Under the pieces are notes generated by a model. That model was not told where the DNA came from. It saw only the letters and a program-made list of their open reading frames with translations, and did not search any database. Positions 2,317-22,217 of a stretch of DNA of 25,396 nt are shown here, piece by piece (positions within the stretch are counted from its first letter, which is position 1; each line of letters starts with the position of its first letter). Position numbers and translations under genes: made by a program. Location: positions 1-25,396 of the IMG/VR virus record IMGVR_UViG_3300034152_000215, one strand, 5' to 3'. Origin of the DNA: a virus.

Positions 2317-2665
2317 GGCAGATCAGTCCCTTGTTGTTGTCATAGCGGAGATCGCGCTTGGCGATGGTGGCGGTAAAGCCAGCTTCCACACAGAGCTCGA
2401 CGTACTCGCTACTGATCATCCCGTCCTTGTAGAACGTGAAGCTTCGGTTGGCCGAGGCCCCGCGCTTTACGTAGTCCGGCTGGAGAACAAATATAACCTG
2501 CTCGCCAGTCGCACCCAGCAGACTCCGGACCGCCTCTACCCCGGCGTCCTTGGACAGAAAACGCGAAACCTTCTTCACGTCTTCGTACCGCTTGGCGATA
2601 GCGTTATTGATCGCTACCAGTTGTGCCCCCGACAGATCGTGGAGGCTTTTCTTCTTGCTTGCCAT
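2309..2665 (-). CDS. Hypothetical protein, 118 aa
   Basis: I do not recognise this family. The product is 118 residues, basic at the N terminus (MASKKK), with a predicted helical first half and a more beta-rich second half (VIFVLQPDYVKRG, residues 57-69, then SFTFYKDGMIS). It has no cysteine pair, transmembrane segment or catalytic motif that I can identify. ATG 2665 has a strong SD (GGGAGGAAG) just upstream, which supports translation. Its start lies inside the last 62 nt of the dCMP deaminase gene, and its end overlaps the nuclease gene by 8 nt. That places it in the same transcript and suggests a DNA-metabolism accessory role, which is inference only. Confidence 0.7.
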   Translation of the reverse strand: MASKKKSLHDLSGAQLVAINNAIAKRYEDVKKVSRFLSKDAGVEAVRSLLGATGEQVIFVLQPDYVKRGASANRSFTFYKDGMISSEYVELCVEAGFTATIAKRDLRYDNNKGLICLV

Positions 2666-3101
2666 TTCTTCCTCCCAAAATTAGCCGCACGCCTGCCTCC
2701 TCAAAGAGAGCTACGGCGCGCTCCAACGTGTCACCCCACCGACTACGGTAGTCGGCTGTGGGCATATTTGCGTAGACTCTTGTGATACCGGCCTCTATAA
2801 TAAGAGCAGCACACCGGCAGCACGGTACGGCAGACACGAAGATATAGCACCCCTCCAGGTCTCTCTTCGCGTCGAGTAAGGCCCTCGCCTCCGCGTGCAC
2901 GACCAACTCGTACTTGAGGGCCCTGTCGTTCATACGCTCGTCTTCTGCTATACCGAACGGAAACCCGTTGTACCCGGTCCCTAAGATACGGCCTTCCGGG
3001 TCCGTCACTATGGCCCCCAGCTTAGTGCTCGGGTCGACACTGCGGCATTCACCTATCGTCTCAGCATCCGTAAGTAGCCGCTCTTCTACGTCAGGTCCCA
3101 T
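2604..3101 (-). CDS. dCMP deaminase (zinc-dependent cytidine deaminase fold)
   Basis: Converts dCMP to dUMP, feeding thymidylate-type pathways. The zinc site is clear: HAE at residues 69-71 (His69, proton-shuttling Glu71) and PCCRC at 93-97 (Cys94 and Cys97). DPSTKLGA near residue 23 and GTGYNGFPFG at 41-50 are typical of phage and bacterial dCMP deaminases. I chose ATG 3101 (165 aa) because GGAG sits 8 nt upstream; an in-frame GTG at 3125 would add eight residues. The Lys/Glu/Gly-rich tail overlaps the next gene by 62 nt. The dUMP it makes is the substrate for the ThyA-family enzyme at 9759-10814, so it fits the proposed modified-thymine pathway, but it is equally usual in phages making ordinary dTMP. 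Confidence 0.9.
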   Translation of the reverse strand: MGPDVEERLLTDAETIGECRSVDPSTKLGAIVTDPEGRILGTGYNGFPFGIAEDERMNDRALKYELVVHAEARALLDAKRDLEGCYIFVSAVPCCRCAALIIEAGITRVYANMPTADYRSRWGDTLERAVALFEEAGVRLILGGRNGKQEEKPPRSVGGTTGSDQ

Positions 3102-3487
3102 CGGCAGATCTCCGTCTTCTTGCACATAAGGCTTACCGCTATCACCGTTAGTCTTAGCTCCCTGTCCGTCTTAGTTGCTATGTGCGGATGCCAGCTGTAG
3201 GTCTGGTCCCGCGAGTCGTGTGTCGTTAGCTCCATCAACCATCTTGGCCATACCGTATTATAGGTTGGCTCGAGAGCGCGGACAGTGTGACGAGGCCCGT
3301 ACCAGGCCTCAAGGGAAAACTCGATCTCGAACCTGCTGCTCGCTGGTGGTGCGACGATACCCCTAACCCAGTCCACTATCTCGGCCATCTCCGTAGGCGA
3401 CAAATCCTTGAAATAACTTAACGTCAGGTGCAGGTCCGGCCGTCCCTGGAACCTCAGGCACACATAGTAGTTCTTTCTCGTACTCAT
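3086..3487 (-). CDS. 2H phosphoesterase (LigT/CPDase-like)
   Basis: 133-residue protein with both signature histidine motifs of the 2H superfamily: HLT at residues 20-22 (within LHLTLSYF) and HIA at 102-104 (within WHPHIAT). Members open cyclic phosphodiesters: 2',3'-cyclic phosphates on RNA ends, or cyclic nucleotides, as for the phage anti-CBASS enzyme Acb1. The length is normal for a minimal 2H domain. It starts in an ATGA overlap with the Pnk-type kinase gene, so the two are coupled. A kinase plus a 2H esterase are the two end-healing activities of fungal tRNA ligase, which makes RNA repair one reasonable hypothesis. Anti-defence hydrolysis of cyclic oligonucleotides is the other. No ligase is seen in the window. 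Confidence 0.82.
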   Translation of the reverse strand: MSTRKNYYVCLRFQGRPDLHLTLSYFKDLSPTEMAEIVDWVRGIVAPPASSRFEIEFSLEAWYGPRHTVRALEPTYNTVWPRWLMELTTHDSRDQTYSWHPHIATKTDRELRLTVIAVSLMCKKTEICRWDLT

Positions 3488-3978
3488 AGCTGCACTTCAG
3501 GGGACCACATCCCCATCACCCTCCGCTCGTAGTCGGTCAGGCACTCGGACTCTGACCTTAACTGCTCAACTATCTCCCACGGGAACTTGGTCTCCTTGCA
3601 CCGCCTCCGCCACTCCTTCTCTTCGGGTCTCGGGAACACTACCGCGATAACCTGAGCGTCGTACTCCTGGGCCAACTGTAGGTAGATAGCCCTTATCCAC
3701 ACAGCGTGGTTCGCGTTATCTACGATCACGTGCTGTCCGCGTACCAGAAGAGACCGGATCATATACTCCTCGACCATCGTTACGGTTTGCTCCAGTCTCC
3801 TGTCATAGCGGTTTACCCCGAGTACCCTGCGAATGTCGTCCCGAGACACGATAGTGGCCCGGAGTACCCGGTGGGACCGGTTTGCCCAGGAGGACTTGCC
3901 GCATCGTGGGAGGGCGACGGTTAGGTACATCGTTGGTCGCCCTGGTAGTTGGTCCCTTGTGGCGAAGTCAGTCGTCAT
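3484..3978 (-). CDS. P-loop polynucleotide-type kinase
   Basis: 164-residue P-loop kinase. Walker A is ALPRCGKS (residues 22-29, with Ala in place of the first Gly). VSRDDIR (44-50) resembles the NRDD.R element of T4 polynucleotide kinase. VIVDNANH (84-91) matches the vDnaN strand of the same group, and RRRC (124-127) may be the lid. There is no C-terminal phosphatase domain. Such kinases phosphorylate 5'-OH ends of nucleic acid. In hypermodified-thymine phages a P-loop kinase phosphorylates 5-hydroxymethyluracil in DNA, which is an alternative role here. ATG 3978 follows GGAG at about 10 nt and overlaps the membrane-protein gene by 11 nt. Fold assignment is solid, substrate unknown. Confidence 0.82.
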   Translation of the reverse strand: MTTDFATRDQLPGRPTMYLTVALPRCGKSSWANRSHRVLRATIVSRDDIRRVLGVNRYDRRLEQTVTMVEEYMIRSLLVRGQHVIVDNANHAVWIRAIYLQLAQEYDAQVIAVVFPRPEEKEWRRRCKETKFPWEIVEQLRSESECLTDYERRVMGMWSPEVQL

Positions 3979-4632: not shown

Positions 4633-5991
4633 TTATCTCTGAGCCTCCTCGTCACTTACCCTTGTCGTAAACTGGCAGACCAGGCCCTCGTTCTCTGACC
4701 AGATGAACGAGGCGCTGGCTCGGTTCTTGTCGAGAAAACCCATCTCGTAGTGCCACTTGTCCGAGGCACAAAGAGACGGGAGCATACGGACCACGGTGTG
4801 GGAGCCGAGCGTGTCCGCCTGCATGTACTGCAGCTCCATTATTTTGTGCAGGTGGCCGGTGTGTATCTCGTGGTGGTCGGCGTCGGCCCACTCCTTCTTA
4901 AAGAGCTCGGCGAATATACCCCGCTGCTTCTCCCACATCCCCTTGTTCATAGGGTGGGAGAAACCGATAGCGCTGTTGCCCCACGTGTACAGCTTCCGGC
5001 TACGGGCACCAGTGTCCACGGTAACACCTCGCCGAAACCCACCGTCCACGTCCATGTAGTGCGCGGCCAGTTCCCTGGCCAGGAAGTACGAGGTCTGCTC
5101 GTCGTGGTTGCCGGGGACCCATATGAGGTGCACCGGAGCGATCTGGCGTAGCCGTTCTATGCCCCGGAACAGGGACCAGAAGCCAGACTCGTACACCTTA
5201 ATGAGTCGGCCCTCTATGTCGAGCCGGTGCTTGCCCTTCGGTGTCTGGAAGGTCGGGTCGTTGCAGTGGAACCAGTCGTTCCCTATCGGGACGAGGATCT
5301 GCTTGACGTTGTACGGCGAGGCCTTCTCGATGACCTTCGTGGTGGCTATGTCGAAGAACGCGTCCGAAATCTTCAGGTCCCAGTGGGCCTCCACCTCTGG
5401 CTTCCAGGCAAGTAGACCGTGGTGCTGGTCGAACGGGCACCACTCCAGCATCACCGGATCTTTCTTTAGACTACGATACTTAACCTTTGGTGGTCTGTAC
5501 TTCCTGGCGATCAGCCTGTCGCACAGAGTCTCTATCGCCTGCTCCGCAGGCGTGCGGCGCTCGAGAGTGCACGAGATATGCATGTTGGTGTAGACTCTGG
5601 ATTGGTCGGCCGTGCACTTACCGACGGTCTTCCGTAGCTTTACTGTAACCTCGCTACTGGACACTCGGCAGGTCTTTACGGCCCACTCCTTCGGGTCCAC
5701 GTCGCACGCTTTCAGTAGCTTTTCGGGACTCTTTATGTCCAGCCATCTCGGCCTGCTGTCCTTTTCGTGAGTCACCTCTATGTCGAGCTGACCACCCTTC
5801 TCCCCGAGAGTAGAGGTGACCTTCTTACCCGGCCTCGGGTCCTTGTTTACCGTGACGTTGCGACGACGTCGTATTCTACGAACGGTCGCCTCACCAATAC
5901 TTAGCTCGGCGGCCACCCCCACATTTGTCATTCCCGAGCAGAGTAGCGCTACAACTCTGTCCTCTACAGCAGGGTCTATTTGTCTTCCCAT
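4633..5991 (-). CDS. HTH domain fused to calcineurin-like metallophosphoesterase
   Basis: 452-residue protein. Residues about 20-42 form a helix-turn-helix (GMTNVGVAAELSIGEATVRR), then a basic linker. The C-terminal half is a calcineurin-like phosphoesterase with the full metal-site set: DQHHG (188-192), GND (237-239), GNHDE (294-298), a separate His in FSHP (346) and GHLH (379-382). Such enzymes hydrolyse phosphodiesters or phosphomonoesters; several relatives are DNA exonucleases or repair nucleases. The fused HTH suggests DNA targeting. ATG 5991 is preceded by AGGAGG at about 5 nt, a strong site. It overlaps the polymerase stop by 16 nt, so it is probably made together with the polymerase. 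The exact substrate is not deducible. Confidence 0.86.
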   Translation of the reverse strand: MGRQIDPAVEDRVVALLCSGMTNVGVAAELSIGEATVRRIRRRRNVTVNKDPRPGKKVTSTLGEKGGQLDIEVTHEKDSRPRWLDIKSPEKLLKACDVDPKEWAVKTCRVSSSEVTVKLRKTVGKCTADQSRVYTNMHISCTLERRTPAEQAIETLCDRLIARKYRPPKVKYRSLKKDPVMLEWCPFDQHHGLLAWKPEVEAHWDLKISDAFFDIATTKVIEKASPYNVKQILVPIGNDWFHCNDPTFQTPKGKHRLDIEGRLIKVYESGFWSLFRGIERLRQIAPVHLIWVPGNHDEQTSYFLARELAAHYMDVDGGFRRGVTVDTGARSRKLYTWGNSAIGFSHPMNKGMWEKQRGIFAELFKKEWADADHHEIHTGHLHKIMELQYMQADTLGSHTVVRMLPSLCASDKWHYEMGFLDKNRASASFIWSENEGLVCQFTTRVSDEEAQR

Positions 5992-7955
5992 GATTCCTCC
6001 TGTGCAACCTTCTTAACCTCGCCCCAGCTGGGACCAACCTCTGTATCTACCCTAAACGGCACTCTCGCCGTTACGCACTCCCGCATAATGACGGCCAGTT
6101 CTTTCGCCTGCTCGACCCGCTCCACCGTTTGGTCTAACTCGTCGTGTACCTGCAACTGGAGCCTGAACCCGGCCTTGTCCGCCTCTACCATAGCGATCTT
6201 GGTCTGATCTCCTGATGAGCCCTGGATAAGTCGGTTGCACGCCTTGTGTATCCAGTCGTACCCGCCAGAACCGTCGACGTTCTTAGCCGGGAACCGGCAG
6301 TGGCGACCAGACACTGTCTTGATATACCCGGTTCGGGCAGCCTTCTTCTCGCACAACTTAGCCAGCTGCCTTACGAACGGGACTCGCCGATTGAACAGGT
6401 CCAGAACCGCCTGGGCCTCGTCCCCAGCAACTTCTATCATCCGACCGCGCCTGTTCTCTATACGCTTAGTGGGCAGCCCGAGGCTTCTCGCCAGCTTGGC
6501 ACCACCCATCCCGTAGCACAGACCGAGGAAAATGATCTTAGCGTTAAACCGCTGCGTGTATGACGGCTCCTCCTTATCCCCAAGACCGTAGATAATCCGA
6601 GCCATCATAGTGTGGTTGTCGGTAAGGGGATCGTTCCGGTACTTCTCTGCTGCCGCTACGACCGACGGGCAGTTGAACCTCAGGATCCTCGGATTCTCGT
6701 GACAGTCCTCGGCGTAGTGCACCAACCACCTGGGCTCCTGCTGAGAGTAGTCGTTCGAAGCCCAGAAGGAGTCTGGGTCGTCGGGGATGTAGATGCTCCG
6801 CCACATGTCGGCGAAGTCGTCCCGGGACGGCTGCTGCTGTAGGTTCGGGTCTACGCAGGACAGACGACCGTACCGTGCTCCCTTGTCTTCTCCGGTCCCG
6901 TCGTCTGTCTTACGTAGCTGGTTGAACGTGCAGTGTATCCGGTCCCCGACGGCGTGCTTCCGAACTGACGCGGCAAACGTGGTGCGGAGTTTGGCGACTT
7001 TGCGGGCACGGTTAAGCGCGTCGGCCACGGGATGCTTAAGACTGGCCAGGAAGTCTTTGTCTATGGAGTATTGGCCGGACTCTACGGTTCGGGGAACTTT
7101 TACGCCTATCGCCTGTAGGGCAGGAGCCAGTGCTGCCGCTTTCATGACGTCTTCAACAGCGATCTGTACGAGAGTCTCGACACGTACTCTGTCCAGACAC
7201 TGCTGCGCCTCTTCCAGGGCCCACTTCTCTACCTGCTCCAGTTTGTCGAAGTCTACGCGCACCCCGCGTCGCCGCATCTTCACGAGCACGGGCAGGAGTC
7301 GGCTCTCCAGATTGTATACTTCCCACAGTTCCTGCTCATCTATTTCTCGCTCCTGCCTACGTAGTAGCTGCAACGGTAGCTTGGCGTCTTGCACGGCGTA
7401 CCCGGCCACGTACCTGGCCGGCAGTTTCCACAAATCTTTCTTTGGGTCCACACCACAGATTTTGGCTATCTCGAGTAGTAGGGTCTCGTCCTTACCCGGT
7501 AGGCCCCGGCGCGCCGCGATATTCTCTAAAGAGTAGGAGAACTGGAGCTCGTCCAGTAGAGGCTCGGCTATCTGGCAGTCCCGAAACCACCGGGCACTAC
7601 GGAACACGATTTTCTCTTGTGCGAGATAGTCGAGGTCGTACTGCAACTGTGCCCCGCAGATATCGCCGGAGAACACCTTAGCCTGGTCTCTGAAGTAAGC
7701 CAAGGCATGCTCGGGCGATTCTACATTATCCCCACCGGCGTGTCGGATCGGGACGTATGCGGAGGGCCCGTCCTCTATGGCGAAGGATATCCCGACGACG
7801 TAGCCGTCACGCCGGACACCCGGTCCCAGCGTCTTTAGCTGCGGGTCCTTGGTCTCGACGTCCACCGATACCCGGCCAGCTCCCTTCCAGGAAGGGAGCT
7901 CCGAGATCTTTGGCGGCTCCCAGTCAATCTCAGGTTTGAAGAGAGGTAGTTGCAT
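5976..7955 (-). CDS. polA: Family A DNA polymerase with 3'-5' exonuclease domain
   Basis: Replicative DNA polymerase, 659 aa from ATG 7955. The exonuclease domain shows DVETKD (32-37, Exo I), QLQYDLDYL (103-111, Exo II) and YAVQDAK (186-192, Exo III). The polymerase domain shows RYGRLSCVDPNLQ (361-373), motif A NDYSQQEPR (401-409), the O-helix QRFNAKIIFLGLCYG (468-482) and motif C QVHDE (602-606). There is no 5'-3' exonuclease domain, as usual for phage PolA. In the O-helix the residue equivalent to E. coli Phe762 is Leu477. An in-frame GTG at 7985 would add ten residues but lacks a suitable SD. The start overlaps the Nudix gene end by 26 nt. Confidence 0.95.
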   Translation of the reverse strand: MQLPLFKPEIDWEPPKISELPSWKGAGRVSVDVETKDPQLKTLGPGVRRDGYVVGISFAIEDGPSAYVPIRHAGGDNVESPEHALAYFRDQAKVFSGDICGAQLQYDLDYLAQEKIVFRSARWFRDCQIAEPLLDELQFSYSLENIAARRGLPGKDETLLLEIAKICGVDPKKDLWKLPARYVAGYAVQDAKLPLQLLRRQEREIDEQELWEVYNLESRLLPVLVKMRRRGVRVDFDKLEQVEKWALEEAQQCLDRVRVETLVQIAVEDVMKAAALAPALQAIGVKVPRTVESGQYSIDKDFLASLKHPVADALNRARKVAKLRTTFAASVRKHAVGDRIHCTFNQLRKTDDGTGEDKGARYGRLSCVDPNLQQQPSRDDFADMWRSIYIPDDPDSFWASNDYSQQEPRWLVHYAEDCHENPRILRFNCPSVVAAAEKYRNDPLTDNHTMMARIIYGLGDKEEPSYTQRFNAKIIFLGLCYGMGGAKLARSLGLPTKRIENRRGRMIEVAGDEAQAVLDLFNRRVPFVRQLAKLCEKKAARTGYIKTVSGRHCRFPAKNVDGSGGYDWIHKACNRLIQGSSGDQTKIAMVEADKAGFRLQLQVHDELDQTVERVEQAKELAVIMRECVTARVPFRVDTEVGPSWGEVKKVAQEESWEDK

Positions 7956-8469
7956 CGTCTTTCTTATAGGTCGTGTATATTGCACCTAACCTGTTGTGGC
8001 AGGTCCGGTCAGTAAGGAACTGCACGAACCAGTTCACACACGGGCACAACGGGAGATAAGGCACGGCCCTTACGGGAACTATCCGAACCTCCTCGTCCGT
8101 CTTAGTTTCTACCGCGTTGGCGATATAATCGTTCTGGCCCCAGAAGCAGTGGACTATGAAGTCCTCACCGCACAGTTCTGTGAACTTGTTCCACTCCTTG
8201 CACTGCGTGTGGACCCCGGTCTCTTCGAAGAACTCGCGGATCATGGCGTCTTTAGGAAGCTCGCCGTCCTGGCATCCGCACGTGCAATTTCCCTTACCGA
8301 AGACGTCGTCCTGCTCGGCCACGTGCTGCTTCCCCATCTCTATCTTACCGCCGACACCGTTCCACCGGCCGAGTACTGCCCTCGGCCCGTGCTCTTTCTT
8401 CATGAGAACTACCTTGTCCATGGCCGCGTCGAACATGAACCCGACCACGTACTCCTGTATCATCCCCAT
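7930..8469 (-). CDS. Nudix hydrolase with Cys-rich insertion inside the Nudix box
   Basis: 179-residue Nudix-type hydrolase, expected to cleave nucleoside diphosphates linked to another group (such as damaged dNTPs or modified nucleotides). RWNGVGGKIE (35-44) is the usual beta-strand and loop before the box, and GELPKDAMIREFFEETGV (69-86) is the catalytic helix with the REFFEE metal-binding glutamates. Between them sit about 24 extra residues containing CTCGC (62-66), unusual because the canonical box is continuous. ATG 8469 has a near-perfect SD (AGGAGGTGA). It lies between an unknown gene and the polymerase gene. In this context it could sanitise dNTP pools or process modified precursors, which is inference. 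Confidence 0.85.
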   Translation of the reverse strand: MGMIQEYVVGFMFDAAMDKVVLMKKEHGPRAVLGRWNGVGGKIEMGKQHVAEQDDVFGKGNCTCGCQDGELPKDAMIREFFEETGVHTQCKEWNKFTELCGEDFIVHCFWGQNDYIANAVETKTDEEVRIVPVRAVPYLPLCPCVNWFVQFLTDRTCHNRLGAIYTTYKKDDATTSLQT

Positions 8470-8726
8470 CCTTTCACCTCCTTTACGACCTCAGTCTTTG
8501 CGGCCTGCTTAATATCGATTCGCTCTTCCGTAATGACGTGTATGCGGAACGGGTTATTGACCGGCATCTCGGTCTTGTCTGTCCAGATCAGCACGCAGCC
8601 ACCCACCTGGCCGATGTACGTAGCCAGTAACTGCACAGGGAGACCGACCGCGTTCTCTTCGATCGCGGCCTTAGTCGCCACGAACACGTCTCTTTGGAGC
8701 TTCATAAATCGTTGAGTGTCGGTCAT
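8460..8726 (-). CDS. Hypothetical protein, 88 aa
   Basis: 88-residue acidic-to-neutral protein with no recognised motif. The middle contains a hydrophobic stretch (LLATYIGQVGGCVLIW, residues 33-48) that is more like buried beta strands than a membrane helix, since it is interrupted by Gly and polar residues. The C terminus is Lys/Glu-rich. ATG 8726 directly follows the TAG of the preceding gene and has GGAGGGATAG upstream, so translation is well supported. It overlaps the Nudix start by 10 nt. Function unknown. Confidence 0.68.
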   Translation of the reverse strand: MTDTQRFMKLQRDVFVATKAAIEENAVGLPVQLLATYIGQVGGCVLIWTDKTEMPVNNPFRIHVITEERIDIKQAAKTEVVKEVKGWG

Positions 8727-9233
8727 CTATCCCTCCTTAGCCTTAGCGTCTGCCCTAATCCTGGCCACACGCGCCTCGCAGCAGTCTGGGCACTCGCACT
8801 TCTCGCAGTGCGGCTCCTCGGTTAGTGCCCTCTTGGTCACACAGGCATTGCAGATACAGCCCCCGTTAGGTTGGTGCTCCGACGCGTTGTCTCGGTGCTT
8901 TGACTTAGCAGCGACAGAACCTCGGGCACGCATCTCCGCCTCCACCAGGACCAGATACCGGCGAAGGTCGCGGATGTCGTCAATAAGCCCCTCGCCTCGC
9001 TCGTCCTTCATAATGTGGTCGAAGATATCGAACTGTCTGGCTCCGCCCTCCTCGCTCTCTATCCGGTTCTCGAGCCGGTCCCACTTGCGGCAGAGCATCA
9101 TGTAGGCCCCTACGCCACCCCGACGCTTCCAGCTTCCCTTGTAGTGTCCCTCGGCCTTACGAAGACCTGTCCCGTCCTCCGTCGTTATCGGGATAATGTG
9201 CTCCAGGTGTTTTGTGTCCATGTCGTGGTCCAC
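8727..9233 (-). CDS. Unknown phage protein with Cys-rich tail (possible Nmad1/MazG-like fold)
   Basis: 168-residue protein from GTG 9233, which has AAAGGAAAG at suitable distance; ATG 9221 is the alternative. The first 110 residues look all-helical with KGSWKRRGGVGAYMML (32-47) and LIDDIRDLRRYLVLVEAEM (83-101). This pattern resembles phage proteins related to DUF1599 (nucleotide modification associated domain 1) or MazG-like helical folds, but I recognise it only weakly. The C terminus is a cysteine cluster, CICNAC then CEKCECPDCC (residues 126-152), probably a zinc-binding module. It overlaps the HD-domain gene by 77 nt and abuts the next gene as TAGATG. If the Nmad1 resemblance holds, it would fit the base-modification context. 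Confidence 0.66.
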   Translation of the reverse strand: MDHDMDTKHLEHIIPITTEDGTGLRKAEGHYKGSWKRRGGVGAYMMLCRKWDRLENRIESEEGGARQFDIFDHIMKDERGEGLIDDIRDLRRYLVLVEAEMRARGSVAAKSKHRDNASEHQPNGGCICNACVTKRALTEEPHCEKCECPDCCEARVARIRADAKAKEG

Positions 9234-9777
9234 TTCGCTTTCCTTTCCACAATAGGTCGTAGCTTCGTTTATACCTACTATAGTCTTTCGTCAGTAGTTC
9301 AAAGACGGGAGTAGGTATCCAGATCATATTCTCCGTAGTCCACTCGCCGATGTTCCGCAGTAGTACGTGGACATTCCGGTTCCCCACGAGTAGCTGGTCC
9401 TGACACCAGAGGAAGAGCTCCAGCATGTCCACGGCCTTAGCCCACCTGAGCTCTGTCTCGGACAGATGGCACTTCCTTATGAATTTCATCTGCACGTGAA
9501 TTAGTTCCTCTGCCTCCTCCATTCCACTCGCGATACCGGCGAACATCTGCTTAGCGTACCACGGCGCGTCCCCGGTCCACCGCTCAGCCACGTCATGGGT
9601 AAGGACGTACATAAGAAGGAGTTTGGAAGCATCCGGATACAGCGTATCGAGAAGCATCGCCGCGTGCCAGGAGTGCTTTGCATTGTCGTACTCCCCGAAG
9701 TGGGGAATAGTGTGGCATCGGCGCACGTGCCCGGCCTCGCGTAAATCTTGTATCCGGTCTAATGTTCTTTTGTCCAT
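9157..9777 (-). CDS. HD-domain phosphohydrolase (YfbR-like nucleotidase)
   Basis: 206 aa from ATG 9777. HD-superfamily metal residues are visible: NAKHSWHAA (residues 32-40) carries the first histidine and LTHDVAE (59-65) the HD pair, with a later Asp in AVDMLEL. The order and spacing resemble YfbR-type 5'-deoxynucleotidases and related dNTP hydrolases, which remove phosphate from dNMPs. In phages that replace thymine, nucleotidases of this sort drain the dTMP or dTTP pool; that role here is inference. A GTG at 9801 is possible but its SD is too close. The start overlaps the ThyA-like gene by 19 nt, and the polar C-terminal tail overlaps the next gene. Confidence 0.82.
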   Translation of the reverse strand: MDKRTLDRIQDLREAGHVRRCHTIPHFGEYDNAKHSWHAAMLLDTLYPDASKLLLMYVLTHDVAERWTGDAPWYAKQMFAGIASGMEEAEELIHVQMKFIRKCHLSETELRWAKAVDMLELFLWCQDQLLVGNRNVHVLLRNIGEWTTENMIWIPTPVFELLTKDYSRYKRSYDLLWKGKRSGPRHGHKTPGAHYPDNDGGRDRSS

Positions 9778-10814
9778 TTCGCTACTCGTCTCTCGAGCCA
9801 CTCTCCTGCGGCCATGGTCCAGTCATGATTCTTCGGCATCTGCTTAGCCACTATCTCCTGGGCGTTACGGAGTCTCTCTATTCTGCTACCGTCACCGCGC
9901 TTATAAAACGTAAGCGCTCTCAGCATAGGCGAGGCGATCTTTCTCGTAAACCAGTCCTGACTGCCCAGAGGAGTGTCGCCGACCTCGAGAAGCATGCGGC
10001 TGTCCGCGTCGAATATGGGCACGGTGCCCCGGACGAGAGGCGTAGTGACGACCATGTTCTGCTCGTAGGGACAGCCGTTCCTGTACTGGGAGGACGGCCA
10101 CGCCTTGGCGGCCAGCTGGTGCATTAGTTCCTCGTGCCGGTCGAGATACAGATGCAGGTTGTTGGTCACCTGCCAGTACCGGCCGACCCCGCAGCCTATC
10201 ATCTCCGCCATGTACTCCTGCAAGAAAGAGAAGTGCACCGCGTTGGCTCCGAGAGCACCCCATACCGCGTCGTTGCTCCGGTTGCACACGGTCATGTCGA
10301 GACGACGCTCGTGCACGGCGAAGTAGACGTGCGTGTTGCACGGTACGTCCTTAGTAGCTGCCCCGAGGTCGTAGTTCGCGTCCCATATCTGGAGCACCTG
10401 TCGCCGGCAGTTCTCGTCGGCCCGCATCGCCTCGGCTATCATGGTGAGCTGGTCCGTGCCCGTTTCCGGATGCGGGATCTCGAACCAGTTCCGCCAGCGA
10501 AAACCATAGGCCCCGTGGAATATCTTCCCGTTGTCCGAGAAGTCCGCCATGCTGGGTAGTATGGACACTAAGAACTCCACGTCTCGCCTACCGGCCAGCA
10601 TCCACAACGACTCGAGCACGTGGAAGAACGGGTTGGCGTCTCGCTCCGGCCAGAACACGACTCGCTCGCACGGTCTCTCGTACATAATAGTAGTCGGCCC
10701 GTCCATCTTAAGGACCGGTCCGCTACGACTCTCCTGGCGGATACCCTCGGTCATCAGTAGGTGCATAACCTCGGGCAGTGCCTGGTGAGCGTTTCTCGCT
10801 CTTACTACGTGCAT
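9759..10814 (-). CDS. Thymidylate synthase superfamily enzyme, possible dUMP hydroxymethylase
   Basis: 351-residue folate-dependent enzyme of the ThyA fold. Catalytic Cys159 lies in VPCNTHVYF, RSND is at 179-182, the dUMP-binding Asn is in GALGAN (191), and HLY (221-223) is the nucleotide-binding H-x-Y. GAYGFRWR (101-108) matches the ThyA YG.qWR element. The canonical PCH is PCN here and the following Gln is Tyr; RSND rather than RS.D recalls T4 dCMP hydroxymethylase, while the Asn favours uracil over cytosine. A dUMP hydroxymethylase making 5-hydroxymethyl-dUMP is therefore plausible; ordinary thymidylate synthase is the alternative. ATG 10814 has AGGAGG 8 nt upstream and overlaps the HNH stop as TAATG. 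It is longer than E. coli ThyA (264 aa). Confidence 0.85.
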   Translation of the reverse strand: MHVVRARNAHQALPEVMHLLMTEGIRQESRSGPVLKMDGPTTIMYERPCERVVFWPERDANPFFHVLESLWMLAGRRDVEFLVSILPSMADFSDNGKIFHGAYGFRWRNWFEIPHPETGTDQLTMIAEAMRADENCRRQVLQIWDANYDLGAATKDVPCNTHVYFAVHERRLDMTVCNRSNDAVWGALGANAVHFSFLQEYMAEMIGCGVGRYWQVTNNLHLYLDRHEELMHQLAAKAWPSSQYRNGCPYEQNMVVTTPLVRGTVPIFDADSRMLLEVGDTPLGSQDWFTRKIASPMLRALTFYKRGDGSRIERLRNAQEIVAKQMPKNHDWTMAAGEWLERRVAKWTKEH

Positions 10815-11134
10815 TATGACCACCTCCTAATAGAGTTTTCGCTCTGCGTTACGGCCTCCAGATGATCCGGGTTGCAGCATGCTCGTTGCGTACACATCGG
10901 CTTCTTGTGGTCTATAGTCATTCCTTCCGGGATCGCTTTCTTAAGCGCTGCATAGGCGACTCTGTGGACCCAGCGAGACTTACCTTCGTACCATATTTTC
11001 CCGTATCCCTTTCTGTCTCGACAACCCATCCACACCCAGCACCCGTCGTTATTCTCCCTAAGATTAGTAAACAGCCGCCTTAGCAGGTCGGGATCACTTA
11101 TCTTCGGGAAGGCGTGTGCCCGAGAGAGTACCAT
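10814..11134 (-). CDS. HNH endonuclease (HNH_3 / homing type)
   Basis: 106-residue free-standing HNH nuclease. The N-terminal CWVWMGCRDRKGYGKI (32-47) and WVHRVAYAAL (55-64) lead to IDHKKPMC (74-81) and CNPDHLEAVT (87-96), the pattern of phage HNH_3 homing endonucleases related to I-HmuI. No separate DNA-binding domain is visible beyond the short tail. It sits between the glycosyltransferase and ThyA-like genes, overlapping the first by 37 nt and sharing TAATG with the second, so it has been fitted in without breaking the operon. No SD at proper spacing precedes ATG 11134, suggesting low or coupled translation. It may be a selfish mobile gene or have a DNA-processing role. Confidence 0.85.
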   Translation of the reverse strand: MVLSRAHAFPKISDPDLLRRLFTNLRENNDGCWVWMGCRDRKGYGKIWYEGKSRWVHRVAYAALKKAIPEGMTIDHKKPMCTQRACCNPDHLEAVTQSENSIRRWS

Positions 11135-11919
11135 CCCTGATACGAGTCGTACGCCTTCTTCCAGTAGATCGTAACCTCTTTGCGCGTACCGAACTCTCCT
11201 CCCGACCTGTTCTTCTTCATCCGTAGCCGGACGAACGGCTCGTGCAGCTCAGCCAGCTTCTCGGCTGCCGCCGCGTGCAACTTGTGGCTTCGGTAGTCGC
11301 TGCAACCCCCGGCCTCCTGAGTCTGCTTCTGGCCCTGCGCAAAGTTCACCGTCATAGCGTTCGGCACACCTCGGCGGAGCAGCTGGAGCAAGACGTCGAA
11401 ATCCTCCATTACCGGGACCCTGCCGTGCTCGCAAGCGAGAAACTCAGCCGTGTTGAAGGCCAGCACCCGGATAAGTCTGGTGTTGATGTTCGGGCACTTG
11501 TCGAACCGATTGTTCCCCTCGCGAGGACTAACGCCGACAGCGCCGTAGCCCTTTAGGAGTAGATGCTCGATATAACCCACCATCCTCTTAGTCTCTTCCG
11601 GCTCCTGACCCCGCAGGTGCCAGTCACCCGGCGCCTTCCGGATCAGGAACCCGAGGTCGTCGTCCATCATGCAGAAGTGCTTGTCATTCCCGGCCTGTTC
11701 GGCACACCACTGCCGTGTCATAGCGATCCCGTCATACGGGCAGACCAGAACATTGTCGGCAGGAATACGTCCGGCGACAGCGTCCTCATATTGTGGCTTC
11801 TGACCGACAGGAACTACCACGTAGGGATGCGGCAGGTTGGTCTTAATTAGCTGTCTCAGAGTCCGGCCCTTCTGAGCCACCCTGTCAGCTCTTGACCTCG
11901 ACGGTATAAAGATCTTCAT
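11098..11919 (-). CDS. GT-A type glycosyltransferase, possible DNA-base glycosyltransferase
   Basis: 273-residue protein. It opens with MKIFIPSRSRADRV, the first beta strand and nucleotide-sugar loop typical of GT-A enzymes. CMMDDDLGF (83-91) supplies the D-x-D that binds metal and the sugar-nucleotide, and PVMEDFDVLLQLL is a likely catalytic-domain segment. The opening and D-x-D resemble glycosyltransferases that comparative genomics linked to modified-base operons of phages (TET/JBP-associated type). Its ATGA overlap with the pyrophosphorylase-like gene supports a shared pathway, so a modified thymine in DNA is the suggested acceptor. A cell-surface or protein acceptor is not excluded. ATG 11919 has GAGGAG about 9 nt upstream. 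Confidence 0.78.
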   Translation of the reverse strand: MKIFIPSRSRADRVAQKGRTLRQLIKTNLPHPYVVVPVGQKPQYEDAVAGRIPADNVLVCPYDGIAMTRQWCAEQAGNDKHFCMMDDDLGFLIRKAPGDWHLRGQEPEETKRMVGYIEHLLLKGYGAVGVSPREGNNRFDKCPNINTRLIRVLAFNTAEFLACEHGRVPVMEDFDVLLQLLRRGVPNAMTVNFAQGQKQTQEAGGCSDYRSHKLHAAAAEKLAELHEPFVRLRMKKNRSGGEFGTRKEVTIYWKKAYDSYQGWYSLGHTPSRR

Positions 11920-12782
11920 CCGTTGTATCTCCTCTTCATTCTCTTCCCCTCGTACTTAACCCGGTAGTATTTGGCGTATTCGCAGAGCCAGTGCTCCACC
12001 TCACGCATTTCCCACTTCGGCCAGTGCTGCGGCCACAACTCCTCCGCCGTACTAAGAACAACGAGTCGTTGCATAGCCTCTATCGCCGCGATCCGGTCCC
12101 TCGCTGCTCCGTACGACATCTCCTGGGCAGTTAGTTTGGACAAACCGAGACAGGCCCCTGGCCCAGGAGCAGCCCACATGGTGATATCCGGCGCGTTCTC
12201 CAGAAGATAAGTCCACCGCAAATCACTCGTTATCTCGTAGGCCATAAAAGAACCGAGACAAGGGAACCGCATTAGGATACGCCACATATTCTCGAGAGTG
12301 CACGGCTGCTCCAGCCGCGTAGTGATCTCCAGATGGTCGCGAGATATCGAGTGCACCATACTTATGATACCGTTCAACTTGTCCATGCCGTCGGGACTCC
12401 TGATAACGTAGGCTGCCCCGCATATAGGTCTGGTGTCCCTAAGCGCCTCGTGCGTGCGGACACCGTCGAAGTGTGTGTTGACGAACACCCTTGCGTCCAG
12501 TAGCTTCTGCAACGTCTCTACCTTATTGACGAGCCGGCAGAGGGCCATGGCCCACATAACTCGGGACTCGTTCCGATACGGCTCTCGCACGTTCTCGCGG
12601 ATCCAGGTAGTAACCTTGTCGTCCTCGCGAAACACGTTGCAGAAGTACCACTCGCGGAATATCGGGTCGCTGGTCCAGGGTCGGCTCTGCCCCTCTCGTC
12701 TCTTCTGGAGAATAGTGTACCGTTCTCTGGCTGTAGCGAAGTACTCTTCGACGCGGTCGTCTTGTAGTTCGTAGGTTGGCAT
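11916..12782 (-). CDS. Alpha-glutamyl/putrescinyl thymine pyrophosphorylase-like protein
   Basis: 288-residue protein that I match to the alpha-glutamyl/putrescinyl thymine pyrophosphorylase (aGPT-Pplase) family by its N-terminal signature: RYTILQKRREG (21-31), RPWTSDPI (34-41) and FCNVFREDDKVTTW (47-60). The rest is largely helical, consistent with the DNA-glycosylase-like fold proposed for the family. By published prediction, these enzymes replace the pyrophosphate on 5-(pyrophosphoryloxymethyl)uracil in DNA with an amino acid or polyamine, as in SP10- and phiW-14-type modified thymines. It is the first gene of the putative modification block and overlaps the glycosyltransferase as ATGA. 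No standard SD precedes ATG 12782. The catalytic residues cannot be named with confidence. Confidence 0.8.
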   Translation of the reverse strand: MPTYELQDDRVEEYFATARERYTILQKRREGQSRPWTSDPIFREWYFCNVFREDDKVTTWIRENVREPYRNESRVMWAMALCRLVNKVETLQKLLDARVFVNTHFDGVRTHEALRDTRPICGAAYVIRSPDGMDKLNGIISMVHSISRDHLEITTRLEQPCTLENMWRILMRFPCLGSFMAYEITSDLRWTYLLENAPDITMWAAPGPGACLGLSKLTAQEMSYGAARDRIAAIEAMQRLVVLSTAEELWPQHWPKWEMREVEHWLCEYAKYYRVKYEGKRMKRRYNG

Positions 12783-21176: not shown

Positions 21177-22217
21177 CTACGACGCCAGAACCAGCGCCTC
21201 CTTAAAGGCTGCCTGCTTGCAGTCGTTGGAAGTACCGAACAGGTTCGAGTGCACCCGGCCCTCGGACTCCTGCACCGACAGGAACCGGCCGCGCTGGTGG
21301 TCATGGTAGAAACTGACCGCGTTGTACGCGGCCCATGCCGTACCACGAACACCGTCCATAACCTGCTCGTCCCGATCCATGTTTTTACCCCACGTCTCCA
21401 GGATACCGTCCCGGCGAGCTATCTGCTTCTCGAACCGGCGAACGTCCTTGGGGTTGGTCTCGTCCACCTCGGGCACCACGCCGAAGGACGCGTCATAGAC
21501 CGCGCGGAAGTACGCGGCGACCTCGCTCTGCTTCACGTGCTTAGCCGCCAGGACCCTTACCTGGGCCTCGAACTTCTTGATCTCGTCCATTATCAAGCCC
21601 AGGGCGAGGCGTGCGTGGCCGATCTTCTGCTTGATGTCGCCGGTGTGCTGGAACTGGATACCCCTGCTCAGATCCTTCTCCGAGAGACGGAGTGTGTTGG
21701 CGCAGACGACCCGGACCGAGGTCGGGTAGATCTGAAACGCCGCGCTACCGTCGTGGCTGTTTCGGACCAGCACGTACTGCTGGAGGATGTCCTGGTCGGT
21801 AACCGCTATGTCCTGCGGCAGCCGGACCAGGGCGAATATCTGTCGCCCGTTACGGAGCGAGCCGGCAGTCTCCACCACCACCGTCTGGTCAGCCTCGACC
21901 AGGATATCGGCGAACTCGGCGAGAGCCTTATTGCTTACCGGCTTGTACTTACTCCCGACCACCCCGAGCAGACCCATAGTGTCCTTACGGATGTGGGCCG
22001 CGTGGGTCGGCACCTTGAACTGCTTCTTCTTTCCGTCCGTGTCCTTGTACTGACAGACCAGCGGTAAGAGCTCGGTCTCCCAATCGAGCCCTATCTCCTG
22101 GAACGCGGGCCAGGCCCTTAGCCCGTCGTTGATCTCGACGCCAAGCCCGTGCCACGCCTTCTGGCCGTGCAGCCGGACCTCGCCGAAAACGTCTGTCGCT
22201 TCGATTTCGTGTGCCAT
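21177..22217 (-). CDS. DUF932 (phage/plasmid-like TIGR03299) protein
   Basis: 346-residue protein matching the DUF932 / phage-plasmid-like family: the N-terminal MAHEIEATDVFGEVRLHGQK is followed by AWHGLGVEI, and the centre has GVVGSKYKPVSN and YPTSVRVVCANTLRLS. Members are common in phages and plasmids, but their biochemical function is unsettled; they are often near replication or anti-restriction genes. ATG 22217 has AAAGGG about 8 nt upstream. The length is typical. It is the second gene after the 22.5 kb promoter and is probably expressed early. Confidence 0.85.
   Translation of the reverse strand: MAHEIEATDVFGEVRLHGQKAWHGLGVEINDGLRAWPAFQEIGLDWETELLPLVCQYKDTDGKKKQFKVPTHAAHIRKDTMGLLGVVGSKYKPVSNKALAEFADILVEADQTVVVETAGSLRNGRQIFALVRLPQDIAVTDQDILQQYVLVRNSHDGSAAFQIYPTSVRVVCANTLRLSEKDLSRGIQFQHTGDIKQKIGHARLALGLIMDEIKKFEAQVRVLAAKHVKQSEVAAYFRAVYDASFGVVPEVDETNPKDVRRFEKQIARRDGILETWGKNMDRDEQVMDGVRGTAWAAYNAVSFYHDHQRGRFLSVQESEGRVHSNLFGTSNDCKQAAFKEALVLAS

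Follow-up and report, generated by a model that had tools for sequence, protein, structure and literature searches.

A predicted thymine-to-sugar DNA modification module in a virus record and the exchange of writer genes beside PF18723

Introduction

The phages M6 and PaMx11 carry the closest described systems, which are thymidine hypermodification loci with genes for ribonucleotide reductase, a PF18723 protein, a ThyA-type enzyme, an HD-domain protein, DNA polymerase A and dCMP deaminase in the same order as in the locus analysed here. In M6, the kinase (gp54, PF18748 above the cut-off), the amino acid:DNA transferase or ADDT (gp51, PF18724) and the PF18723 protein (gp55) are encoded by separate genes. 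The same was found for PaMx11, with kinase gp49 (PF18748 below the cut-off, AAA_33 above it), transferase gp46 (PF18724) and PF18723 protein gp50. The PaMx11 gp46 protein (PUGT) matches PF18724, and its solved structure was entered in the PDB as a 5-PmdU glycinyltransferase.

TAGT glycosyltransferases are known from T2/T6 and from TET-associated phage loci, and solitary TAGT homologues without T4-type glycosyltransferases were noted in 2026 (PMC13216743). The T4 beta-glucosyltransferase accepts 5hmU in duplex DNA only if it is mispaired with G, and not if it stands opposite A (PMC4111573). Kinetoplastid base J also carries a sugar on 5-hydroxymethyluracil, but there JBP oxidises thymine already in DNA and a different glucosyltransferase acts (PMC6449724).

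In pelagiphages, a “partner AMG” cluster of TS and aG/PT-PPlase1 was described, and some genomes also carry a putative glucosyltransferase and a 5'-deoxynucleotidase (PMC9599517, mSystems 2022). TS and PF18723 have therefore already been seen together with a glycosyltransferase. In the passages of that article covered here, the cluster was read as M6-type hypermodification, and neither kinase exclusion nor writer exchange was mentioned.

Results

Gene content and order

The window, meaning the whole stretch of DNA analysed, is a virus record of 25,396 bases. An ORF check confirmed each of the named genes, the module genes included, as a real minus-strand ORF. Gene order is as in Mesyanzhinovviridae (M6, PaMx11), the shared order being helicases, ribonucleotide reductase, modification genes, ThyA, HD, DNA polymerase A, dCMP deaminase and primase. 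In the direction of transcription, the PF18723 gene (12782-11916) is followed by TAGT (11919-11098), an HNH endonuclease (11134-10814), ThyA (10823-9759), HD (9801-9157), two small ORFs and then Nudix (8469-7930). A family A DNA polymerase (5976..7985, PF00476 E 7e-49) adjoins the module. The window PF18723 and ThyA proteins are 33-40% and 44-52% identical, respectively, to those of M6/PaMx11. Unlike those phages, the window has no PF18748, PF18724 or associated modification genes, and a TAGT gene lies between PF18723 and ThyA.

A comparison with the related locus L022 (PF18723 51-52% identical) showed the same difference. L022 contains reductase, ADDT, kinase, PF18723, ThyA, HD, a Nudix-like ORF and polymerase, while the window, L009 and L021 lack both ADDT and kinase and have TAGT after PF18723, the window and L021 otherwise sharing the gene order of L022. 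About 36 bases separate the ribonucleotide reductase gene from the PF18723 gene in the window, and therefore there is no space for a kinase or transferase at that point.

When whole records were searched, neither the window nor any of 32 other TAGT-type records gave a PF18748 kinase, where the result for the window covers its 25 kb fragment. The kinase profile returned nothing in the window and 31 others beyond a 36-residue stretch (E 0.005) in one record. No ADDT (PF18724) was found in the window and 31 other TAGT-type records, with PaMx11 and L022 giving a signal as controls. The records with neither kinase nor ADDT include two finished genomes, LuckyBarnes and MW202897.

PF18723 protein

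The gene at 11916..12782 (minus strand) encodes a protein of 288 aa, which the sequence-only reading of this DNA had called aGPT-Pplase-like. The profile search placed it in PF18723 (144.6 bits against a curated cut-off of 25, E 5e-42, residues 10-277 of 287), named “5-hmdU DNA kinase, helical domain” (HMUDK_hel, ex aGPT-Pplase1) in the Pfam copy used. The family assignment thus held, and the earlier label arose because phage records still annotate homologues as aGPT-Pplase1: among Pseudomonas phage homologues, three records read “aGPT-Pplase1 domain-containing” and another “5-hmdU DNA kinase helical domain-containing”. The activity implied by that label, pyrophosphorylase or transferase, was rejected, as it belongs to a different protein, PaMx11 gp46/PUGT (PF18724). 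In M6 and PaMx11, kinase and transferase each have a gene of their own beside that for PF18723, so 11916-12782 encodes neither of these two enzymes.

Rows from annotated phage records were left out of the structure-model alignments, and the AF2 model of the protein reached a pLDDT of 96.8. Foldseek with this model gave no match below E 0.001, and PDB sequence searches with PF18723, as a single sequence and as a profile, found no relative. VIA-align placed DUF2419 (Z 10.2) and the gp46 glycinyltransferase (Z 10.1) at the top, along with DNA glycosylases. Nearly all 50 rows were DNA-glycosylase-superfamily structures or gp46, with Z of 7-10, a Z near 10 being moderate for a helical protein. A DNA-glycosylase-like fold is predicted for PF18723 from this model, because the matched structures came consistently from one superfamily.

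TAGT glycosyltransferase

The gene at 11098..11919 (minus strand) encodes a TAGT-family GT-A glycosyltransferase of 273 aa (PF20691 66.3 bits against a cut-off of 27.5; phrog_842 E 5e-41). It overlaps the upstream PF18723 gene by ATGA. The DDD motif among the catalytic residues is invariant, and so are D173 and D175. The model (pLDDT 93.6) has a GT-A fold. The Pfam family is common, above the cut-off, to the TAGT of T2/T6 and of TET-associated phage loci; in contrast to T2/T6, the window TAGT is predicted to act on ThyA-derived 5-hmdU, and no T4-type AGT or BGT was detected across 32 records in a search for which T4 served as the positive control. PF12851 (TET/JBP) gave no match in 32 records, in a search in which no positive control rang. 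In viral contigs, a single-sequence TAGT search gave no match, while an alignment-based search did find TAGT.

ThyA and nucleotide-pool genes

The ThyA-superfamily gene (9759..10823, minus strand; Thymidylat_synt 75 bits) has PCN in place of PCH, as in SPO1, and RSND is present. The product is 52% identical to that of PaMx11, 34% to SPO1 gp29, annotated as dUMP hydroxymethylase, and 19% to T4 gp42 (full length). Alignment with SPO1 gp29, T4 gp42 and E. coli TS (reference sequence identical to PDB entries) showed the catalytic Cys and an Asn where T4 gp42 has Asp179, the determinant of dCMP over dUMP in T4 (PMC6400193). The Asn at this dUMP/dCMP switch was found in 44/44 TAGT-class ThyA proteins, LuckyBarnes included. 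From these residues, the window ThyA is predicted to be a dUMP hydroxymethylase making 5-hmdUMP.

The HD-domain protein (9157..9801, minus strand; phrog_6047 E 9e-41) is probably a 5'-nucleotidase; Pfam HD_3 was below the cut-off in the window and above it in the L009 orthologue. The Nudix hydrolase (7930..8469, minus strand; PF00293 E 8e-10), with a counterpart at the same position in L009 and Nudix-like ORFs in L021 and L022, is a probable nucleotide-pool enzyme, and the dCMP deaminase (2604..3125, minus strand; PF00383 E 3e-15) is a probable supplier of dUMP. The glycosyltransferase, the ThyA-type enzyme with both motifs, the HD gene and the nearby Nudix enzyme had all been named in the sequence-only reading, and the searches bore them out.

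Survey of writer genes

Loci with PF18723 or TAGT were gathered from viral contigs and annotated phages and dereplicated by PF18723 similarity, which gave 103 PF18723 clusters represented by 12 annotated phages or the window and by 91 viral contigs. With glycosyltransferase matches cut at 60 bits and a radius of 7 kb, both chosen after the matches were seen, the clusters were assigned to TAGT (44), kinase (44, of which 27 with ADDT), methyltransferase (6), GT-B (6, of which 5 with FkbM) and no writer (3, of which one is truncated by the end of its contig and another has its kinases more than 7 kb away). TAGT lay within 60 nt of PF18723 in 16/44 clusters and the kinase in 29/44.

At the 60-bit cut, none of the 103 clusters held a clear TAGT together with a kinase, and ADDT was never found alongside TAGT among the surveyed clusters. 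Without a score cut, TAGT-like and kinase genes co-occurred in two clusters only. The glycosyltransferase matches in L044/L045 were weak (21-22 bits). Mercedes (L016) had two matches of 44-47 bits to the profile built here, one of them 53.9 bits to Pfam TAGT, and its kinase-like protein was weak and not called PF18748 by Pfam. The PF18723-retrieved set contained glycosyltransferase only in 11, kinase only in 37 and both in 1 (Fisher p 4.5e-5, a value that ignores kinship). An independent search of bacterial and archaeal contigs with PF18723 alone yielded a kinase in 8, GT or GT-B in 7 and both in 0. Clear TAGT and kinase are mutually exclusive across the PF18723 family.

The TAGT-retrieved loci comprised 36 PF18723-bearing clusters, none with a kinase. 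ThyA accompanied TAGT in every TAGT-retrieved cluster, and PF18723 did so except in loci cut at contig edges and in MW202897; the TAGT query consisted mostly of PF18723-linked sequences, so this high linkage describes this TAGT subfamily only. MW202897 (40 kb, called circular and complete) has TAGT and ThyA with PF18723 not detected, and therefore the partner role proposed below for PF18723 is not always needed. Chromosomal PF18723 and ThyA pairs with no local writer also exist. The isolate Brevibacterium phage LuckyBarnes carries two TAGT genes together with ThyA and PF18723.

Phylogenetic analysis

On the PF18723 tree, the TAGT and kinase labels require 12-16 changes, at least 5-7 of them on well-supported branches, and the ThyA tree calls for a minimum of 4-5. 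A single TAGT clade on the PF18723 tree was rejected (cost of 411 log-likelihood units, AU p 3e-108). The supported group that holds the window on this tree has five members with a kinase and four with TAGT. The label changes on both trees show that writers were swapped repeatedly beside a constant PF18723-ThyA pair. No description of this pattern was found in the literature, the coverage of which was incomplete, and Lee 2022 may list related combinations.

Proposed pathway and alternatives

Taken together, these data make it probable that the locus is a thymine-to-sugar module. The dCMP deaminase would supply dUMP, which the ThyA-type enzyme would convert to 5-hydroxymethyl-dUMP; the HD and Nudix proteins would tune the pool of nucleotides, and with 5-hmdUTP as substrate the phage PolA would insert 5-hmdU into DNA. 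TAGT would then glycosylate the hydroxymethyl group of 5-hmdU in the polymerised DNA, with PF18723 as a base-recognition partner that recognises or flips the 5-hmdU:A base and hands it to TAGT, a part it would also play for the kinase of M6-type phages. The predicted product is 5-(glycosyloxymethyl)-dU, base-J-like and with no phosphate or amine, and the ThyA enzyme would make the precursor nucleotide, unlike in the base J pathway. Several observations count against this reading: MW202897 has no detected PF18723, Mercedes combines TAGT-like enzymes with a weak kinase-like protein, a kinase might lie outside the 25 kb fragment, a P-loop AAA_33 protein is encoded in the window, fewer TAGT than kinase genes lie within 60 nt of PF18723, the fold Z scores are moderate, and chromosomal PF18723-ThyA pairs exist with no local writer. 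The sequence-only reading had foreseen thymine modification that begins with 5-hydroxymethyl-dU and likely adds a sugar; its further proposal, in which the sugar is additional to a phosphate or pyrophosphate-amine route, found no support, PF18748 and PF18724 being absent from the window and about 30 related TAGT-type records.

The T4 BGT is idle on 5hmU:A, so a helper for that pair is plausible. To glycosylate 5-hmdU:A, a phage would have to possess an enzyme or a helper suited to this pairing, and PF18723 appears a reasonable candidate from its predicted base-handling fold and its constant presence beside different writers. More tentatively, and at somewhat less than even probability, PF18723 may be a chassis for interchangeable writers, not a kinase subunit, that presents 5-hmdU to a kinase (then an amino acid), to GT-A or GT-B glycosyltransferases or to a methyltransferase. 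If so, at least two undescribed phage DNA bases would exist, a glycosyloxymethyl-dU and an alkylated (e.g. methoxymethyl) dU.

A catalytic role for PF18723 itself, in which a relative of the 5-PmdU glycinyltransferase makes a 5-hmdU intermediate for TAGT or kinase, is considered unlikely. Its modelled fold is nearest to DUF2419 and gp46, and 13 residues are invariant in 92 PF18723 sequences spanning all writer classes, but the protein co-occurs with kinase, GT-A, GT-B or methyltransferase, chemistries that share only the 5-hmdU hydroxyl. The profile comparison with ADDT was also weak (4.7% probability), and MW202897 appears without PF18723. A hybrid route is less probable still, with the P-loop AAA_33 protein (3484-3978) phosphorylating 5-hmdU, an amine being installed and TAGT adding a sugar. 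Such a kinase-like ORF is present in the window and in its closest relatives L009 and L021, and PaMx11 gp49, which adjoins PF18723, also matches AAA_33. As the missing kinase, however, the AAA_33 protein was rejected at -0.6 bits to the 5-hmdU kinase profile; its gene is distant from the module and neighbours a LigT-like ORF, similarity searches recovered it solely in the window, L009/L010 and L021, and the TAGT-type records have no ADDT.

It is very unlikely that TAGT modifies 5-hmC or adds a second sugar to an already glycosylated base, as in T6. This role has been described for TAGT in T2/T6 (PMC13216743), and the authors of LuckyBarnes, with its two TAGT genes, called its ThyA a dCMP hydroxymethylase; the uracil-type Asn throughout the TAGT-class ThyA proteins, that of LuckyBarnes among them, and the missing T4-type AGT/BGT argue against it. 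A host envelope or other non-DNA target is highly improbable: TarS and other enzymes of wall teichoic acid are among the structure matches to the TAGT model, yet TAGT keeps company with ThyA and, save for the exceptions given above, PF18723, and it takes over the position of DNA-modifying genes.

Under the thymine-to-sugar reading, this locus and its many uncultured relatives lead to a predicted sugar-bearing thymine base, and PF18723, whose name comes from a single step of one pathway, is suggested to be a general 5-hmdU-DNA adaptor. A glycosyltransferase able to modify 5-hmU opposite A in DNA would also have value as a reagent.

Other genes of the module

A small conserved protein with no function assigned is encoded at 8727..9233 (minus strand), and similar ORFs were seen by eye beside HD/ThyA in L021, L022, L135 and L163. 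The HNH endonuclease gene (10814..11134, minus strand; PF13392 E 1e-9) sits between TAGT and ThyA and had been passed over in the sequence-only reading. It has a matching location in L009, with a similar ORF at the corresponding place in L021, and is probably a mobile gene located where the exchange occurs.

Variation at the PF18723/ThyA locus

An HNH endonuclease gene (10814-11134) was found at the exchange site, where TAGT and kinase writers were swapped, and L009 and L021, close relatives of the window, also carried an HNH gene there, by a similar ORF in L021. In phage AIIMS-Plu-RaNi (L007), PF18723 and ThyA were separated by a GIY-YIG gene. The writer exchanges may have been carried by such homing genes.

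PF18723 and ThyA flanked a GT-B glycosyltransferase in loci L036, L067, L070, L073, L083, L086, and L183, most of which also had an FkbM methyltransferase, and the product may be a methylated sugar on 5-hmdU. A SAM methyltransferase, immediately or closely upstream of PF18723, replaced the kinase or TAGT in loci L071, L074, L076, L087, L092, and L094, and may alkylate 5-hmdU. Microbacterium phages Mercedes (L016) and Lucky3 (L015) both encoded PF18723, a divergent ThyA, and thymidylate-kinase-like P-loop proteins, with two additional TAGT-like enzymes in Mercedes. Hyphomicrobium/Hyphomicrobiaceae contigs (L195, L194, L205, L187, and L197) contained adjacent PF18723 and ThyA genes, preceded by a recA-like ORF in L195 and L194, and no recognised writer was found within the contig stretch examined.

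Other genes in the window

An AAA_33 P-loop protein and an adjoining, weakly LigT-like ORF (3086-3978) are possibly a nucleic-acid end-repair pair; relatives of the AAA_33 protein were found only in L009/L010 and L021. A DUF932 protein (PF06067, E 6e-52) was encoded at 21177-22217.
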